Assembly: GCA_017549765.1 (NCBI GenBank)
Contig: JAFYNM010000010.1
Coordinates: 1 to 64,000, forward strand
DNA length: 64,000 nt
Direction of reading: 5' to 3'
Source: Bacteroidales bacterium
GTDB lineage: Bacteria; Bacteroidota; Bacteroidia; Bacteroidales; WCHB1-69
Position 1 is the first letter of the stretch. Every line of letters starts with the position of its first letter. The position numbers were made by a program, and so were the translations under genes. The notes beneath the pieces are model-generated. The model was not told where the DNA came from, made no database searches, and worked only from the letters and a program-made list of their open reading frames with translations. Positions 21,957 to 63,004 of this stretch are shown here, in pieces.

Positions 21957-24900
21957 TTACTTCTTCTCCATTTTGACGGTCTTCACTTTGCCGCCGCCGA
22001 GACGGATGAGGTCGTAGGCGAACGGGCTGGAGATGAGGATACCGGAGTAGGTACCGAAGAGGATACCTACGAACATGGCGAAGATGAAGCCGCGGATAAC
22101 CTCGCCGCCGAAGATGAAGATCACCAACAGGGTCACCAACGTAGTACCGGCGGTGTTGATGTTACGGCCGAGGGTCTGGTTGATGGCGGCGTTGAAGTTG
22201 TCGTAGTTCTCACGTTTCGGATAGAGGGCCAAGTTCTCACGAACACGGTCGAAGATCACCACGTTGTTGTTGATGGAGTAACCGATCACCGTCAGGATGG
22301 CGGCGATGAAGTTCTGGTCGATCTCCATGGAGAACGGCATGATCTTATAGAGCAGGGAGAACATACCGATGGTGAGGAAGGTATCGTGGAACAGGGCGAA
22401 GATACCGGCCATACCGAACTGCCAGTTTCTGAAACGGATGGCGATATAGATGAAGATCAGCACCAAGGAGGCGAGCACGGCCCAGATGGACTTGGCCAGC
22501 AATTCGCGGGCGATGGTGGGTTGGATCTTCTGGGAGGACTGGATACCACGTTGGTCGAGGGTCAGGTTTGTGAAATCCTTCTCCGTGAGGTCTTGCTTTG
22601 CGTAGAAGCCCTTCAATGCGTTGTACAGCTTGCTCTCGCACTCTTTGTCATCTTGCGTGTCGTTGCTCTCGATCTTGTAGTTGGTGACGATACGGATCTG
22701 GTCGTTGCTACCGAAGGTCTTGACCTCGGGATTGCCGCCGAACTCTTTGGCGACGGCTGCACGGACCTCCTTCGTGGTCACATCCTTGTCGAAGCGCACC
22801 ACATAGCAACGGCCACCGGTGAAGTCGATACCGGGTTGCAACTTGAGGGTGCAGAAGGAGATGATGGAGATGATGAAGAGAATGCCGGAGAGGATGTAGA
22901 AATACTTTCTCTTGGCGAGGAAATCGATATGGGTGTTGGTGAAGGCGTTGATGGTGACCTTGTTGCCCACTTCGATGGATTTGCCTTTCTTCAGGCGTGA
23001 CTCGATGATCATACGGGACATCAGGATGGCCGTGAAGAGGGAGGAAACGATACCGATGATCAACGTGGTGGCGAAGCCTTGGATAGGACCGCTGCCGAAG
23101 ATGTACAGCACGATGGCGGTGATCAAGGTCGTCACGTTACCGTCGATGATGGCGGAGTAGGAGTTCTTGAAACCTTCGTCGATGGCGACGCGGATGCCCT
23201 TGCCGGCGCGCACCTCTTCGCGTACACGCTCGTAGATAATCACGTTGGCGTCAACGGCCATACCGAGGGTCAGGACGATACCGGCGATACCGGGCAACGT
23301 CAGGACAGCGCCCATGGAGGCGAGCACACCGAAGATGAAGAATACGTTTGCAAACAAGGCGATGTCGGCCACCAGACCGGCGCGGCTGTAGTACAAGAAC
23401 ATGTAGATGACAACCAAGAGGAAGGCACCCAAGAAGGAAAGCATACCGGAACGGATGGACTCCTTACCGAGGGTAGGTCCCACGATCTCGGATTGGACGA
23501 TGTTGACGCGGGCCTCCAGGTTACCGGAGTTCAACACGGTGGCAAGGTCCTTGGCCTCTTCAATGGTGAAGTTACCGGAGATCTCAGAGTTGCCGTTCGG
23601 AATCTCGCTTCTCACAGAAGGAGCAGAATAAACGAACTCATCCAATACGATAGCGATGCAGGTGACACCCTTGGAAGCGGTGTTGTCGGCAGCCTCTTTG
23701 GTGATCTTGCGCCACTCGTCGGAGGCTTGGTCTTCCATAGACATGTTCACGACGATACGGTTGTTCTGATCCACATCCTGGCGGGCGTTGCGTACCACGC
23801 GGGCGCCACCGATGGTCTCGGAACTCAACAACGGTCCGATACGGTCGTTTTTCTTCTTCAAAGGATACAACGGATAGGCGTTGTCGTGGCTTTTCTCAGG
23901 AGAACCCCAATAGAAAACGACATTGTTGTCGCCCAGGATCTTCTGCAGCTCGGGGAGCATCTGGTTGATGGCGGGCATGTCAGACTCTTTGAAGTAGCCG
24001 ATCACGAAGCCGTCCATGGCCACTGCCTTGCTGAGGATGGCGCCTTGGCTCTCATCGACAAGCTCGTCGTCCTCGTCTTCTTCATCATTTGCTGCGATGG
24101 CGTCGATAGCGGCGGCGGCACTGTCAACAGCAGTGCTGTCGGCCACCTGCTCTGTCGGCTCGTTTTTCTTGTTCTGCAACTGCTGCGCCAACTGATTGTC
24201 GGCGATGGCGAAACGCTGTTGGATGGTACGTCCACCCACCACTTCGTTATAGACCTGCCAGAACTCCAGCTTGGCGGTGGTCTTCAACAGGTCGGTCACA
24301 CGCTCGGGCTCCTTGACACCAGGAAGCTCGACGAGGATACGGCCACCCTGCAAACGCTGCAAGTTGGGCTGTGCCACACCGAAACGGTCGATACGGGTGC
24401 GGAGGATCTTGAAGGTGCGGTCCACAATCTCGCTGGACTCAGTCTTCAACCAGCTGATGATCTGTTGGTCGGAAGCGTTCTTGATGCCGGAACGCTCGCC
24501 GAAATAGGTGCGGAGGTTGGCATTGTTCATGTTCAACGCTTTCTTCTGCGCATTGAAATTGTTTACAAACAGATCTATGAAGTCGTTGTCACTGTTCTTC
24601 TCGAAGTCTGCTACAGACTTCTCAAAAGTGGTGGTGAATAATTGGTCTTCTTTGTTGGTGGCCAAGCTTTGAACCACATCGGGAAGGGAGATCTCCAAGG
24701 TGACGTTCATACCGCCCTTCAGGTCCAGACCCAGGTTCAACTCTTTGTACTTACACTCTTTGTAAGTGTTGCCTAAATACACTTTTTTGTCGTTGTGCTC
24801 GGTCAGGTACTCACGGGTTCTCGCATCGATGATGGAGTCTGTCAGGTGCTTCTCGAGCATCAAGTCGCCATTTGCCAACGTCTTTACCTGCTCCAAGGCT

Positions 24901-25031
24901 TGCGGATCATTCGCGTACTGCTCGGCCTTTTTCTCTACACGCCAGGAGGCGAAAGAGAAGGAGAGACAATACAAACATACCAACGCGAGTAGGATGGTAA
25001 AGAATAAAATCAGTCCTTTGTTGTTTTTCAT
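21957..25031 (-). CDS. secDF: Fused protein translocase SecDF
   Basis: A single 1024-residue chain containing SecD (residues about 1-650) and SecF (about 690-1010), which use the proton gradient to help SecYEG export proteins. Visible features are the N-terminal TM helix, the SecD LGLDLKGGMNVTLEI motif, an acidic insertion at about 310-330, the SecD TM bundle (AGIVLTLGMAVDANVIIYERV), the SecF entry LQPGIDFTGGRCYVVRF, and the SecF bundle (VIGYSINNNVVIFDRV, NTAGTTLVTLLVIFI). The acidic, Ala-rich insertion is a low-complexity segment within the periplasmic part. The gene stands alone with its own -7 box and a strong terminator. Confidence 0.96.
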   Translation of the reverse strand: MKNNKGLILFFTILLALVCLYCLSFSFASWRVEKKAEQYANDPQALEQVKTLANGDLMLEKHLTDSIIDARTREYLTEHNDKKVYLGNTYKECKYKELNLGLDLKGGMNVTLEISLPDVVQSLATNKEDQLFTTTFEKSVADFEKNSDNDFIDLFVNNFNAQKKALNMNNANLRTYFGERSGIKNASDQQIISWLKTESSEIVDRTFKILRTRIDRFGVAQPNLQRLQGGRILVELPGVKEPERVTDLLKTTAKLEFWQVYNEVVGGRTIQQRFAIADNQLAQQLQNKKNEPTEQVADSTAVDSAAAAIDAIAANDEEDEDDELVDESQGAILSKAVAMDGFVIGYFKESDMPAINQMLPELQKILGDNNVVFYWGSPEKSHDNAYPLYPLKKKNDRIGPLLSSETIGGARVVRNARQDVDQNNRIVVNMSMEDQASDEWRKITKEAADNTASKGVTCIAIVLDEFVYSAPSVRSEIPNGNSEISGNFTIEEAKDLATVLNSGNLEARVNIVQSEIVGPTLGKESIRSGMLSFLGAFLLVVIYMFLYYSRAGLVADIALFANVFFIFGVLASMGAVLTLPGIAGIVLTLGMAVDANVIIYERVREEVRAGKGIRVAIDEGFKNSYSAIIDGNVTTLITAIVLYIFGSGPIQGFATTLIIGIVSSLFTAILMSRMIIESRLKKGKSIEVGNKVTINAFTNTHIDFLAKRKYFYILSGILFIISIISFCTLKLQPGIDFTGGRCYVVRFDKDVTTKEVRAAVAKEFGGNPEVKTFGSNDQIRIVTNYKIESNDTQDDKECESKLYNALKGFYAKQDLTEKDFTNLTLDQRGIQSSQKIQPTIARELLAKSIWAVLASLVLIFIYIAIRFRNWQFGMAGIFALFHDTFLTIGMFSLLYKIMPFSMEIDQNFIAAILTVIGYSINNNVVIFDRVRENLALYPKRENYDNFNAAINQTLGRNINTAGTTLVTLLVIFIFGGEVIRGFIFAMFVGILFGTYSGILISSPFAYDLIRLGGGKVKTVKMEKK

Positions 25032-25164: not shown

Positions 25165-25293
25165 GCCATTGGTCATCGGCCATTAGCTATTAGCCATTGG
25201 CTGTTAGCTGTTGGCCGTAGAACAACCATCAACTTCTAACTCCTAACTTCTAACTCCTAACTGAAAACTGATAACTGACAACTGCCAACTTTT
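25165..25293. repeat. Heptad-periodic intergenic array (GCYRTTR type then AACTNNN type)
   Basis: From 25165 to 25220 eight consecutive 7-bp units fit a GCYRTTR-like pattern. From 25231 to 25293 nine consecutive 7-bp units each begin AACT, with the last three bases varying. A 10-bp spacer separates the two blocks. The array fills the gap between secDF (starts 25031, minus) and the LuxR-type gene (ends 25292, minus) and touches the latter's stop. Related arrays occur at 51655, 56475 and 62819. No function is known to me. Confidence 0.85.
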
Positions 25294-25891
25294 AAAGAAT
25301 GTCTTTCTCTTCGATGAGGTTGTGGAGGATGGCATAGACGGTGAGGGCGGCGACCGATTTGATGCCAGTCTTCTTGATGATGTTCTTCCGGTGGGTGATG
25401 ACGGTGTGGACGCTGATGTTTAACGCGTCGGCAATCTCGCTGTTTTTCTTGCCCTTGGAAAGGCATATCAGCACCTCTTTCTCGCGGTCCGACAACATGG
25501 GCGATTCGCTCTCTTCTTGGTCTTTTTGCGTCGTCCGGATGACTTGGTGCAGGGTGGACTTGATGCGCTGCAGGTTGTCGTTGATCTCGATGACACCGTC
25601 GTATTGCTTCAGCAACTGGCTCTCGAAATAGAGGGAGGTCAGCGCCACGACCTTCATCTTCGGCAGGTCGCGGAAGACATCGCGGAGCATCATCCGCTTG
25701 CTGTAGTCCAGCATGACCGGGTTGATGATGAGCATGTCCGGATTGGTGAGGTGGATGCGCGTCATCACCGTGTGCATGTCGGTGGACTTCAACACGACCT
25801 CGAACTCCGGCAACTCCTTGATCATATAGGCCAGACCGATCAGGGTGATGGGGGAGGGGTCAGCCAATACTATTTTATAATTATGAGGCAT
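25292..25891 (-). CDS. LuxR/NarL-type response regulator with atypical receiver
   Basis: A 199-residue regulator. Residues 5-120 look like a CheY-type receiver, but the usual phospho-acceptor Asp is Asn57 (MLIINPVML), and the usual conserved Lys region reads GVIEIND. Residues 135-195 form a LuxR-family DNA-binding domain (LSDREKEVLICLSKGKKNSE, then ISVHTVITHRKNIIKK). It is therefore probably not controlled by standard aspartate phosphorylation. Its ATG overlaps the end of the hemerythrin gene by 11 bp, indicating translational coupling, so the two likely act together. The target genes are unknown; sensing of oxygen or nitric oxide by the partner is an inference. Confidence 0.85.
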   Translation of the reverse strand: MPHNYKIVLADPSPITLIGLAYMIKELPEFEVVLKSTDMHTVMTRIHLTNPDMLIINPVMLDYSKRMMLRDVFRDLPKMKVVALTSLYFESQLLKQYDGVIEINDNLQRIKSTLHQVIRTTQKDQEESESPMLSDREKEVLICLSKGKKNSEIADALNISVHTVITHRKNIIKKTGIKSVAALTVYAILHNLIEEKDIL

Positions 25892-30366: not shown

Positions 30367-33300
30367 ATGAAAAGACTATTCCTCCTATCCGTTTTTCTGC
30401 TTACTCTGCTGGTGGGAACAAGCCCATCGTTGAGAGGAGCACCGATAGATACCAGTGTGGCGAAGCGGGTGGCTGGACATTTCTTTCAGAATAAAATGAA
30501 TGCACCTGCAGAGCCCGAACTGGTCTATGTGGCCATGGGGATCGGAACGGTGAAAGGGCAGGTGCCGATGCTATATATATATAATGTAGCGGATAACTTT
30601 GTGATTCTTTCTGGCGACGACCGGGTCAAGCCGGTGTTGGGCTATTCCACCGAGTCTGCCTTTGATCCGGCAAATATCCCGGATGCTCTGCAGGAATGGT
30701 TGGAAGAGACTCGACAACAGATCAGCGGGGTGATGTCTTCAGGAACCGCCCCCGTGCCTGCCAACTTGGCACAATGGGAGTCGCTGTATCAGACTGCCCC
30801 GACACAAAACCGCTCGGTGGTGATCGGACCACTACTATCGACCCAATGGGACCAGAACGCCTATTACAACAACCTTTGTCCGGCAGACTCGCTAGGGCCT
30901 AATGGACATGTATATGCGGGATGTGTCGCCACCATGATGGCTCAGGTGATCCGCTATTGGCAGTATCCCACGACCGGAATGGGAAGCAGGTCTTATTACT
31001 TGACGAAATATGGATGGCAGAACGTGGACTATTCAGCTGCCCAATATAATTATGTGATCATGCCGGACAAGTTGACTGCCTCTACTCCCACCAATATGGT
31101 CAACGAGACAGCCAAGCTGATCTACCATTGCGCAGTCAGCGTTAAGATGCAGTTCAATTATAATGCAAGTGGTGCTTCTTTGGAGGATGTCAACGGTGCG
31201 CTGCAAAACTATTTCGGCTATGCATCCGGACAATATGTTTACCGCGATAACAATACCACTGATGCAGCCTGGATTGCAACGATGAAGAGTGAACTGGATT
31301 TGCTGCATCCCATCATGTATAGGGGAGCTGGTTCCCAAGGCGGGCACGCTTTTGTGTGCGATGGCTATGATAGCGACAATCTGTTCCATTTCAATTGGGG
31401 ATGGAATGGGGCCTATAACGGGTATTACAATGTCAACAACCTGAACCCGTATGCTTATGTTTTCTCCACACAGCATGCAATGTTGATAGGCATCCAGGCC
31501 GCCACCCCTATCTTGATTGTGGACCAAGAGAGCCTCTTTTTTCAAACACCTTCCGGGGTGGAGAGCCATGCCCAACCGGTCCAAGTCCATACCCACCTCA
31601 TCACAGACTCCATACAGATCACTTCATCTGGTAGCTTTTTGGTCGGGTCAGATACAGTCAATATGTCACATTATGCAAAAATCAGTCCGGCAGGACAGAC
31701 CTTTTATGTGCGCTACAATCCTGTCTGGTCGGATCATGTGGTTATGGAGAATGCCCAGATTGCGATTCAGGCAGATGCCTTGTCGGACACCATTGCCTTG
31801 TCAGGTATTGCATTCGCATGTCCATTACCGCAGACACTCACGCTGACACAAGTAATGGACACTGTCATGCTCCAATGGACTGCCCCATCGTCCCCTTCAA
31901 ACACATATACGATCTCGAAAGATTCCTCGAATACCGTTTTTGGTTTTTCTATGGGCAACTTGCCGTTGGAGGCGATACAACGGTTTTTGCCCTCAGATTT
32001 GTCTAGTTATCACTTGAAAGCGCTGACCCAAGTCTCCTTTATCCCTCTTTCGGGCATTGATTCCTGTGCCGTCAGAGTCTATATGGGTGGCAGTCTCGTG
32101 GATAATGCGCTGGATCCAGGGACGCTGGTTCTGCATCAGCCGGTCAATGTGAGTGACTTGAATATGGGGGTATGGAATACTATTGACTTGGATAGTACGG
32201 TAATAGTGGATGCTACTCAAGAGATGTGGATAGGGGTGTTGTACAAATGCCAAGCGGGACAGCTTAGTTTCCCGTTTTCTACTTCAGGAGATACCATACA
32301 GTATGAAAATAATATTGTGGGACTGCATGTGTCTAGCACCAAGACTCTCTGGTACACCTATAATTATCCTGCCGGAGTGATGAAAGCCACCATAGAGGAC
32401 TTGCCAGTCTCGGTGGTTTCCCATGTTGTGCAACGAGACCATCTGCCTATTGCTGAAGTCTTGGGCTCTGGATATCACGACGCTCCAGTTTTGTCGGGAC
32501 ATTACGTTTATGATGTGATAACCAACTGGGATAATGGGTGTATGGTTGTCGCCACGGATAGTATTGATGTAGTTGTATCCACTGTCAGCCTAGATACGGC
32601 CGTATGCTCGAATGCGTTCCCGTTGGTGTGGCATGGCGTCACCTTTATGGGGGCTGACACACAGTATGTTGTTGTTTCTAATCAGATACTCGTTTTGCAT
32701 GTCGCCGTCAACCCTACGGTCCTTACCGACATTAATGACACCATCTGCTCCACCTCCCTCCCATATCTCTGGCACTCCCACGCCCTCACCCAGTCGGGCT
32801 CCTACACCGACACCCTCGACACCGTCCACGGCTGCGACAGCATCGTCACGCTCCACCTGACGGTCCTCCCAGGCACACACAATGCCGTCAACGTCGAGGA
32901 GTGCGAGCAGTACACGTGGCACGTCACGACCTACACCGCCTCGGGCACCTACACCCACGACTACACCAACGCCCAGGGCTGTCCCAGCACCGACACCCTC
33001 CACCTCACCATACACCCTAAAGTCTTTACCGACCTTACCGACACTGTCTGCTCCTCAAGCCTGCCCTACCTCTGGCACTCCCACGCCCTCACCCAGTCGG
33101 GCTCCTGCACCGACACCCTCGCCACCGTCCACGGCTGCGACAGCATCGTCACGCTCCACCTGACCGTCCTCCCAGGCACACACAATGCCGTCACCGTCGA
33201 GGAGTGCGAGCAGTACACGTGGCACGGCACGACCTACACCGCCTCGGGCACCTACACCCACGACTACACCAACGCCCAGGGCTGTCCCAGCACCGATACC

Positions 33301-33912
33301 CTCCACCTCACCATATTCCCTAAGGCCGTTAAAGACCTTAATGACACTATCTGCTCCTCCGAGCTTCCCTACCTCTGGCACTCCCACGCCCTCACCCAGT
33401 CGGGCTCCTGCACCGACACCCTCGCCACCGTCCACGGCTGCGACAGCATCGTCACGCTGCACCTGACCGTCAATCCAACTGCAGTGACGTATGACACGCT
33501 GTTGCTTTCGGTACACGATTTGCCTTACGAGATTGAGGATGTGCAAGTGGTCGTCGCCTCGGATTCGTTAGAAACGATGGAATTTCAGTACCTGCTGGAG
33601 ACAATGGAAGGCTGCGACAGTCTGGTATATCTGTATGTTCACCTCGTAGATGTTGGGGTGGATGACCCTCAACCTATCACACTGAAGATATATCCTGTCC
33701 CCGCATCTTCGGTTCTCTATATTGAACATGAAGATCTGGAATCCATACTTATCTACGATATGAATGGCCGGTTGTTGAAAATGATCGAGTGCCATGGCAC
33801 CGCGCTCCAACAGGTGCAGGTGACAGATCTAGCCGATGGTGTATATCTTCTCTCCGTTCGTTTGAAGGACGGTTCTATGTCAAGAAAATTATTTAATATT
33901 ATAAATCAATAA
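30367..33912 (+). CDS. Secreted C10 (streptopain-like) cysteine peptidase with tandem repeats and T9SS sorting domain
   Basis: A 1181-residue exoprotein. A signal peptide (to about 24) and an Spi-like propeptide (about 25-150) precede a C10 catalytic domain, with Cys186 in YAGCVATMMAQVI and His327 in GGHAFVCDGY, then HFNWGWNG. A beta-rich region follows to about 780, then 2.5 copies of a 101-residue repeat (about 787-1035; ALTQSGS, HGCDSIVTLHLTV, AQGCPSTDTLHLT). The last 80 residues are a T9SS type A sorting domain (KIYPVPASSVLYI, NGRLLK, LADGVYLLSV). It should be exported by Sec, then T9SS, and surface-anchored. The repeats may be spacers or adhesive. Confidence 0.9.
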   Translation: MKRLFLLSVFLLTLLVGTSPSLRGAPIDTSVAKRVAGHFFQNKMNAPAEPELVYVAMGIGTVKGQVPMLYIYNVADNFVILSGDDRVKPVLGYSTESAFDPANIPDALQEWLEETRQQISGVMSSGTAPVPANLAQWESLYQTAPTQNRSVVIGPLLSTQWDQNAYYNNLCPADSLGPNGHVYAGCVATMMAQVIRYWQYPTTGMGSRSYYLTKYGWQNVDYSAAQYNYVIMPDKLTASTPTNMVNETAKLIYHCAVSVKMQFNYNASGASLEDVNGALQNYFGYASGQYVYRDNNTTDAAWIATMKSELDLLHPIMYRGAGSQGGHAFVCDGYDSDNLFHFNWGWNGAYNGYYNVNNLNPYAYVFSTQHAMLIGIQAATPILIVDQESLFFQTPSGVESHAQPVQVHTHLITDSIQITSSGSFLVGSDTVNMSHYAKISPAGQTFYVRYNPVWSDHVVMENAQIAIQADALSDTIALSGIAFACPLPQTLTLTQVMDTVMLQWTAPSSPSNTYTISKDSSNTVFGFSMGNLPLEAIQRFLPSDLSSYHLKALTQVSFIPLSGIDSCAVRVYMGGSLVDNALDPGTLVLHQPVNVSDLNMGVWNTIDLDSTVIVDATQEMWIGVLYKCQAGQLSFPFSTSGDTIQYENNIVGLHVSSTKTLWYTYNYPAGVMKATIEDLPVSVVSHVVQRDHLPIAEVLGSGYHDAPVLSGHYVYDVITNWDNGCMVVATDSIDVVVSTVSLDTAVCSNAFPLVWHGVTFMGADTQYVVVSNQILVLHVAVNPTVLTDINDTICSTSLPYLWHSHALTQSGSYTDTLDTVHGCDSIVTLHLTVLPGTHNAVNVEECEQYTWHVTTYTASGTYTHDYTNAQGCPSTDTLHLTIHPKVFTDLTDTVCSSSLPYLWHSHALTQSGSCTDTLATVHGCDSIVTLHLTVLPGTHNAVTVEECEQYTWHGTTYTASGTYTHDYTNAQGCPSTDTLHLTIFPKAVKDLNDTICSSELPYLWHSHALTQSGSCTDTLATVHGCDSIVTLHLTVNPTAVTYDTLLLSVHDLPYEIEDVQVVVASDSLETMEFQYLLETMEGCDSLVYLYVHLVDVGVDDPQPITLKIYPVPASSVLYIEHEDLESILIYDMNGRLLKMIECHGTALQQVQVTDLADGVYLLSVRLKDGSMSRKLFNIINQ
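32725..33471 (+). repeat. In-gene tandem repeat, 303-bp period, about 2.5 copies
   Basis: Matching positions recur exactly 303 bp apart (for example the LWHSHALTQSG codons at about 32764, 33067 and 33370). Copies are nearly identical in DNA, and third positions are strongly C-biased, unlike the A/T-richer flanks of the same gene. Each 101-residue unit itself holds two related halves of about 50 residues ending in TLHLT. This points to recent duplication or homogenisation within the peptidase gene. Confidence 0.9.
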
Positions 33913-41418: not shown

Positions 41419-41492
41419 GGCGGGGTAGCTCAGTCGGTTAGAGCGTCGGATTCATAACCCGGAGGTCACGAGTTCAATTCCCGTTCCCGCCA
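41419..41492 (+). tRNA. tRNA-Met (anticodon CAU)
   Basis: The cloverleaf is complete over 74 nt. The acceptor stem pairs GGCGGGG with TCCCGCC, followed by discriminator A. The D-arm has GCTC/GAGC, and the anticodon CAU is at 41453-41455 in a TTCATAA loop. The T-arm carries GTTCAAT. CCA is not encoded. The paired first base (G1-C72) argues for an elongator rather than an initiator; a lysidine-modified Ile tRNA cannot be excluded by sequence alone. Confidence 0.95.
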
Positions 41493-51654: not shown

Positions 51655-51682
51655 GCTGTCGGCCTTTGGCTATTGGCTGAAT
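51655..51682. repeat. Short heptad array (four GCYNTNG-like units)
   Basis: Four consecutive 7-bp units, each starting with GC, fill part of the 119-bp gap between creD and the winged-helix gene. They resemble the units at 25165 and 62819. Confidence 0.6.
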
Positions 51683-55123: not shown

Positions 55124-55168
55124 AGTATCTTAACTTCTTAACTTCTTATTTTCTTAACCAAAAACATA

Positions 55169-56474: not shown

Positions 56475-56509
56475 AGTTGTTAGTTGTCAGTTATCAGTTA
56501 TCAGTTGAT
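56475..56509. repeat. AGTTNNN heptad array
   Basis: Five consecutive 7-bp units each start AGTT, the reverse complement of the AACT-type units at 25231-25293. It starts 6 bp upstream of the VanX-like ATG. A further AT-rich, TTCTTAG-containing stretch lies to 56576. Confidence 0.8.
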
Positions 56510-62818: not shown

Positions 62819-62955
62819 GCTGTTGGCTATTAGCTGTTAGCCATTAGCTATTGGCCATTGGCTGTTGGCTTGAAACTTTGACTTTGAACTTTGACTTTGA
62901 CGCTTGCCACCGCAATTCTTAGTTCCTTAATTTCTTAGTTTCTTAGTTTCTTAGT
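62819..62955. repeat. Heptad and related short-period array
   Basis: Seven consecutive 7-bp units of GCYRTTR type run from 62819 to 62867, then a segment with ACTTTGA-type units, then TTCTTAG-type units at 8-bp spacing to about 62955. It fills most of the gap between the C10 peptidase and the epimerase genes. The word GGACTATGA just before it (62805-62813) also occurs at 56527-56535 near the other array. Confidence 0.8.
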
Positions 62956-63004
62956 TTTTCATCGGATTCATGACCCCATAGGGCACGGCACGAACGAACC
63001 CCCG

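Follow-up and report, generated by a model that had tools for sequence, protein, structure and literature searches.

Degenerate seven-base tandem arrays often abut stop codons and read mostly G-rich away from gene edges in a genus of Bacteroidales

The intergenic DNA of this Bacteroidales bacterium contains tandem arrays of short units that are real and far above chance, with periods of 7 and 8 bp and their multiples. These arrays are a degenerate, non-quadruplex, many-word variant of the known heptamer repeats of bacteria, and they resemble in placement and polarity those described in PMC4692102. The strand of the array is mostly G-rich when read away from the nearest gene edge, whatever the word family. 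Neither this polarity nor the tie of the arrays to stop codons formed part of the initial annotation of this DNA. With regard to their origin, our preferred reading, to which we give a probability of roughly 0.42, is that the arrays were laid down and reshuffled by template switching in intergenic repair and were not kept for a sequence-specific function.

The window, that is, the whole 64-kb stretch of DNA analysed, is contig C8 of a 2.45-Mb genome in 36 contigs (G000). Its arrays and their neighbours are provided in Table 1. Unit counts confirmed the arrays that had been noted at 25165-25293, 51655-51682, and 56475-56509, and the 8-bp-period relative noted at 55131-55155 is the 8-bp array beside the aspartate decarboxylase gene. 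The stretch 62819-62955 had been described as a 7-bp array, which holds for 62819-62870 and not for the rest, where a mixed 6/13-bp period is followed by an 8-bp one. The two units that depart from GCYRTTR within 25165-25220 are GTCATCG and GCCGTAG, and in the array at 51655-51682 just GCTATTG, one unit of four, fits exactly. The last unit of the array at 25231-25293 overlaps the TAA stop codon of the luxR-type gene (25292-25294). In addition, the block at 62958-63004 recurs elsewhere in related genomes joined to 8-bp arrays (L110, L115, L119, and L120). Tandem Repeats Finder recovered the arrays of the window except the short one at 51655-51682. By reading, they mostly obey the outward G-rich rule, as illustrated by the AGTT units that run from the start of the peptidase M15 gene and from the luxR stop. 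The statement that arrays sit only between minus-strand genes was correct for the window and failed elsewhere, as arrays were found in tandem and convergent gaps with genes of both strands. At the gathering score, tRNA was the only Rfam family in the window, with no known RNA family for the arrays. The window also carries a tRNA gene on the plus strand (41419-41492) and a 303-bp tandem repeat with 2.5 copies within a long reading frame (32711-33471).

Table 1. Arrays of the window and the features that adjoin them.
Feature	Position	Strand	Remarks
SecD/SecF-type gene	21957..25031	-	Other flank of the luxR-secDF gap
8 GC-type 7-bp units	25165..25220	+	secDF-luxR gap; exact GCYRTTR in 6/8
9 7-bp units, AACTNNN on the plus strand	25231..25293	-	Equal to the AGTT type, outward from the luxR-type gene
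luxR-type gene, GerE/LuxR-family domain	25292..25891	-	Stop codon overlapped by array
4 imperfect GC-type 7-bp units	51655..51682	+	Outward from the start of a CreD-type gene
8-bp array, AAGAAGTT type	55128..55158	-	Outward from the 3' end of the aspartate decarboxylase gene
5 AGTTNNN units	56475..56509	+	Outward from the start of the peptidase M15 gene
GC-type 7-bp array, about 7 units	62819..62870	+	First part of a composite stretch
ACTTTG-type stretch, mixed 6/13-bp period	62874..62901	.	Middle part of the composite stretch
8-bp array, TTCTTAGT units	62916..62957	-	ACTAAGAA type outward from the 3' end of an epimerase gene
Non-tandem block, about 47 bp	62958..63004	-	Adjoins the 8-bp array 62916-62957

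The periodicity was compared with chance at two levels of stringency. In the loose test of the 64 kb (test windows of 42 compared pairs, cut-off of 28 matches), period 7 gave 100 test windows in the real sequence and none in 50 first-order Markov shuffles; the other periods were 14 (59 test windows), 6 (50), 8 (23), 15 (16), and 3 (9). The strict test (27 of 35 matches), applied to 464 kb of the same genome, yielded 30 segments of period 7, 18 of period 14, 10 of period 21, 6 of period 8, and 2 of period 16, with none for all other periods from 3 to 20 and none in one second-order Markov control. Period 7 also led in three further species (6, 14, and 5 segments), in which other non-multiple periods gave 0-2 segments each. 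The 7-bp periodicity first noted in the window is therefore stronger than in shuffled sequence, and it recurs elsewhere in the genome and across the genus.

Two word families were searched for more widely. Three consecutive GCYRTTR units followed by GC matched 69 times in G000 (overlapping matches counted), and the reversed control of this motif gave no match in that genome. The motif was present in 30 of 35 congeners vs 2 of 24 genomes that belong to other families within the order. A run of four AGTT cores spaced at 7 bp was found in 37 of the 40 genomes of the genus, G000 included, and was absent from G023, G030 (51% complete), and G033. The reversed control of the AGTT pattern also matched in many genomes, probably because the reversed pattern is a real word itself. 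Two congeners, G023 and G033, had neither of the two families searched. In a wider scan, at least 117 four-unit GCYRTTR stretches were present among the matches listed (L161-L277), 80 of them with named sources, which came from many phyla, with Cyanobacteria, Acidobacteria, Chloroflexi, Planctomycetes, Proteobacteria, and Firmicutes included.

These scans support the view that the arrays are dispersed, intergenic, and of more than one family. The two families of the initial annotation are nevertheless too few, as about 10 were present in four sampled species. By reading, the 7-bp words besides AACT/AGTT and GCYRTTR are GTGATTA, AATAACC, TAAATCG, TGATAAT, TGTAGAA/TGAATGC, ATGTACA, GGCAATA, TTGAACC, and AAAATTG, and the 8-mers are GATGAAAC, AAGAAACT, and TGTTGAAT. 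The observation that four bases of the unit are kept and three vary was borne out in 144 AGTT-type units, whose core positions were kept in 137-139 units each and the next three in 104, 60, and 45; phasing of the units on the core flatters its conservation in these figures. Adjacent variable triplets of AGTT arrays were identical in just 53 of 203 cases, and the species pool predicts 32, so that duplication in place occurs with a minor share. The autocorrelation of the triplets is thus weak, as would be expected of draws from a pool. As had been suggested from the window, slippage of an identical unit is ruled out as the whole story by the variable positions and this weak triplet identity.

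The words differ between lineages. Position 3 of the GC units is C or T in G000, G001, and G005, and mostly T in G010 and G021, where GCTTTTR is also used. Among the matches listed, the AGTT triplets read mostly AGC/AGT in G025 and mostly TAG, TAT, TAA, or GAG in G018. A four-tract G-quadruplex motif was present in 0 of 101 arrays, and GGG or CCC in 10 of 101; a G-quadruplex basis was thus rejected.

The placement of these 101 arrays, from four species (G000, G005, G021, and G010), was determined with our own codon-score gene calls, which are uncurated. Tandem gaps held 73 of them, and the placement test covered the 70 whose gaps left at most 600 nt of room, three in wider gaps being excluded. 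Half of the 70 (35) overlap the upstream stop codon or begin no more than 5 nt from it, whereas random placement in the same gaps gave a mean of 10.3 and a maximum of 17 in 1,000 draws; 11 of the 70 lie within 5 nt of a start codon. Divergent gaps held no array in the G000 and G005 samples, four in G021, and two in G010. A second copy of the stop triplet lies one period further downstream in 18 of the 54 genes that abut an array vs 27 of 876 controls, as in TAG followed by CCATTAGC and TAA followed by GAGTTAAG. The last sense codon is repeated in the same manner in 15 of the 54 genes, which means that some arrays extend into the called reading frame. It must be noted that array DNA can supply a stop codon and mislead gene calling.

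The orientation of the arrays relative to genes, a check proposed together with the initial annotation, was biased. The outward strand had more G than C in 34 of the 40 arrays that lay near a 3' edge alone (C>G in 5, one tie) and in 16 of the 19 that lay near a 5' edge alone (C>G in 1, two ties), and array-free edges gave 93 of 222 at 3' and 177 of 342 at 5'. When arrays near both edges were included, the proportion was 47 of 61 at 3' edges (C>G in 12) and just 23 of 40 at 5' edges (C>G in 14). With a looser array definition and the nearest edge within 40 nt, 70 arrays pointed out, 26 in, and 4 were tied. Under this definition, the out:in ratio at 3' edges was 38:14 in tandem and 13:6 in convergent gaps, and the same trend at both makes it unlikely that constraint from the downstream gene is the whole reason. 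More than one array was present in 25 gaps. The arrays faced inward in 16 of these gaps (the left G-rich, the right C-rich) and the other way in one, and eight gaps were mixed or tied. A stop-codon sieve, in which outward words would hold TAA, TAG, or TGA, was dropped by reasoning as a cause of polarity, because the reverse strands hold stops too and stop-free GGGAATC words share the polarity. For the GCYRTTR family across phyla, polarity was scored from crude ORFs with the nearest edge within 40 nt. Among the matches listed, 54 of 125 arrays pointed out and 22 in, with 28 within ORFs left uncounted. The 49 from named Bacteroidota gave 25 out and 6 in, and the 35 from other named phyla 11 out and 9 in, so that in our own scan polarity is not evident outside Bacteroidota.

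The same stop codon was compared between species for three genes, the luxR-type gene of the window and two that we take to be a DUF4159-like gene and fumarase, in the best 30 of 38, 34, and 38 matching genomes, respectively. A strict period-7/8 array was present within 60 nt past the stop in 11, 6, and 7 of the 30, a total of 24 of 90 in which species, not independent events, are counted. Of these arrays, 23 had period 7, one had period 8, and none had any other period from 3 to 13; the control, which consisted of 1,800 coding windows, gave none at period 7 or 8 and one at period 9. On the sense strand, 22 of the 24 had more G than C, one had more C than G, and one was tied. The words at these stops vary by species (AGTTAAG, AGTTAGC, TGTAGAA, GCTGTTG, GTGATCA, GAATGAA), with several word families per gene beside a nearly constant protein C-terminus, and arrays of other words follow the luxR-type gene in several congeners. 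The stretch that runs from the fumarase stop to the end of the following start codon measures 24 nt and has no array in G061; it measures 85 nt in G011, 91 in G000, 95 in G060, 219 in G001, and 229 in G005. The first units in this gap are of AGTT type in G000 and G060 and of GTGATCA type in G001 and G005, and the gap of G011 does not begin with a clean array.

Six close species were followed at further sites. The 119 bp before secDF are constant in length in all six, with an identity to G000 of 0.79-0.92, whereas the luxR-secDF array zone has 0.45-0.64 and an unrelated array 0.56; a conserved anchor served to delimit the promoter zone, so that this contrast is flattered. The arrays thus diverge in sequence as much as unrelated ones do, next to a promoter zone that is conserved. 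The gap after about C29:199264-199265 has AGTT arrays in all six species, and the array at the 3' end at C29:199265 could have been retained by selection. In the gap after C29:200082, GC-type units come first in five of the six, and a palindrome is present in G061.

The STRR repeats of heterocystous cyanobacteria are tandem heptamers. The initial annotation had recognized no described element of this structure, and close relatives are in fact described in PMC4679880 and PMC4692102. According to PMC4692102, GGGAATC and GGGGA(C/T)T heptamers of Xanthomonas and Nostoc lie near ORF edges and overlap stops; those that follow a stop are on the coding strand, and those that precede a start are on the non-coding one. 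They are under-represented between divergent genes, vary in length and sequence between close species, form G-quadruplexes, and favour four units. The present arrays share with them, as there described, the tandem 7-bp structure, the intergenic location near ORF edges with overlap of stop codons, the scarcity between divergent genes, the variation among close species, and the outward G-rich strand, which is weaker here at 5' edges when arrays close to both edges are counted. They differ in that the words are many and not based on G tracts, with none of the 101 arrays of quadruplex type. The polarity is thus common to words unrelated in sequence, which suggests an origin in array-making and not in quadruplexes or one binding protein.

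According to PMC4679880, TAACTGA direct repeats occur in Beggiatoaceae, Cyanobacteria, and five Bacteroidetes. They are intergenic, and other heptamers stand among them in some genomes; the definition requires exact copies, and most repeats of the main genome lie just upstream of starts. The TAACTGA word is present and intergenic here too, as a minority word. Runs of two or more exact units numbered six in the G000 sample, two of them within 60 nt in the comparison with those direct repeats, and zero in the G005, G021, and G010 samples. Unlike those direct repeats, the present arrays are degenerate, lie mostly after stops, and use many further words. The long simple sequence repeats with 7-nt units of Mrazek (2007), as described in PMC4679880 and PMC4692102, share the heptamer preference; they are of one unit, whereas three or more perfect copies occur in just 22 of 88 period-7 arrays here. 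Many-word degenerate arrays with a polarity independent of family were not found in our searches of the open-licence literature on heptamer repeats. The polarity rule makes the heptamer preference of bacterial tandem repeats testable, with gene edges as natural markers.

The combination of free sequence, replacement of words at fixed stops, and build-up from gene edges fits filler DNA, which repair-linked copying may bring up to genes and not far into them. Under template switching in intergenic repair, a 3' end at a gene edge would pair through short homology with an array elsewhere, copy some of its units outward, slip or switch at the conserved four-base core, and then be rejoined. A switch at this point would preserve the four core bases and mix the remaining positions. 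The step in which a donor array is copied is one that we infer. Genes would mark the limit of the arrays because DNA within genes cannot be replaced. Several observations count against this reading. Template switching alone gives no prediction of a G-rich outward strand. The within-species similarity of AGTT arrays was weak in a small set from seven species (0.089 for within minus between species, with shuffles reaching 0.137). Polarity also drops under the looser array definition and, once arrays close to both edges are counted, at 5' edges; it is not evident in the GCYRTTR arrays from outside Bacteroidota, and the array kept at C29:199265 in all six close species could reflect selection.

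Ordinary replication slippage from local seeds, with selection clearing genes and promoters and with words matching by common descent, is a rather doubtful explanation. In its favour, heptamers are the commonest class in most repeat-rich genomes, for which slippage has been proposed (Mrazek, 2007, as reported in PMC4679880). The arrays with three or more perfect copies and the excess of identical adjacent triplets are consistent with it, and in one relative the array-free luxR gap has TAGTTG, a possible seed of the AGTT units of its sisters. Slippage does not predict, however, the outward polarity, the differing word families at one stop codon across species, or a constant core beside variable positions.

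It is improbable that the arrays are functional 3'-end elements (terminators, protectors of mRNA ends, or insulators) selected for spacing and composition and not for sequence. The abutment of stops and the empty divergent gaps of the G000 and G005 samples would agree with such a role, and the six divergent-gap arrays of G021 and G010 would not. After the luxR stop, G061 has a hairpin and a T-run and no array (L063) at the spot where G000, G011, G001, G005, and G060 have a heptamer array. Terminator-like sites, searched as a hairpin plus T-run with 24 of 477 in shuffles, were present at 11 of 70 array-bearing gene ends vs 97 of 407 others, and in convergent gaps at 4 of 17 vs 35 of 73; this could fit such a role, and the difference is small. 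Transcripts start or end more often at G-quadruplex-forming repeats, according to PMC4692102. Against a 3'-end function, arrays in short co-directional gaps would be expected to cut operons, their sequence drifts freely, and G023 and G033 do without either searched family. An RNA hairpin basis was rejected, since the fold signal was weak both in arrays alone (mean z of -1.0, 24% below -2, n = 63) and in array-bearing gaps taken as a whole (mean -1.74, median -0.72, n = 53) vs array-free ones (mean -1.00, median -0.63, n = 84).

Insertion by a transposase-type enzyme, comparable to the TA-flanked palindromes at the same stop codons, has a low probability in our opinion. The TAGAGACG palindrome replaces the array at the fumarase stop in several congeners, and some arrays adjoin non-tandem blocks that are themselves dispersed; by eye, however, no conserved ends or inverted repeats surround the arrays. 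Y1 transposase was found in 36 of 40 genomes, and its presence does not track the arrays, being absent from array-bearing G060 (90% complete, so that the absence could be due to assembly) and present in G023, where the searched words do not occur. The Y1/RAYT transposase was therefore judged an unlikely generator. The palindromes themselves (TAGAGACG...CGTCTC) were observed at the fumarase stop in L382, L385, L391, L393, L394, and L397, with their TAG as the stop of the gene, and each looks like an insertion into a TA target in the stop codon, self-healed as TAG. Species with neither array nor palindrome at this site mostly have a TAA stop, and some TAG or TGA.

With equally little probability, the arrays would be healing scars, in which broken DNA at a gene edge was extended by single seven-base words in succession, with the G-rich strand outward as in telomeres, and then joined. 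The extender would be a bacterial end-extension activity other than a known reverse transcriptase, and the joining of two extended ends would leave inward-facing arrays. If this were true, the heptamers of Xanthomonas, Nostoc, and Bacteroidales would be products of one process. Least probable is the more specific version in which a dedicated polymerase adds one seven-base word per cycle to broken 3' ends, in the manner of telomerase, before joining: the 5'-3' outward G-rich strand at both gene edges, the pairs that face inward in 16 of the 25 gaps with several arrays, and a four-base core plus a variable part that resembles alignment and template speak for it. The approximately 10 words per lineage, which would require many templates, speak against it, and no enzyme of this kind was found. 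RVT_1 was found in 9 of 40 genomes and was absent from the array-rich G000, G011, G026, and G062; G020, the richest in AGTT arrays, had a partial match. A reverse transcriptase was accordingly rejected as the generator.

Finally, a composite element made of an array and a hairpin block was considered and set aside, as a strict pattern gave three copies, too few. The hairpin block itself (CCTTGAGCAGCCCC..GGGGCAAGAGCTCGGTAG) adjoins AGTT-type arrays in G000 at C29:199317-199353 and in the region of C29:299534.
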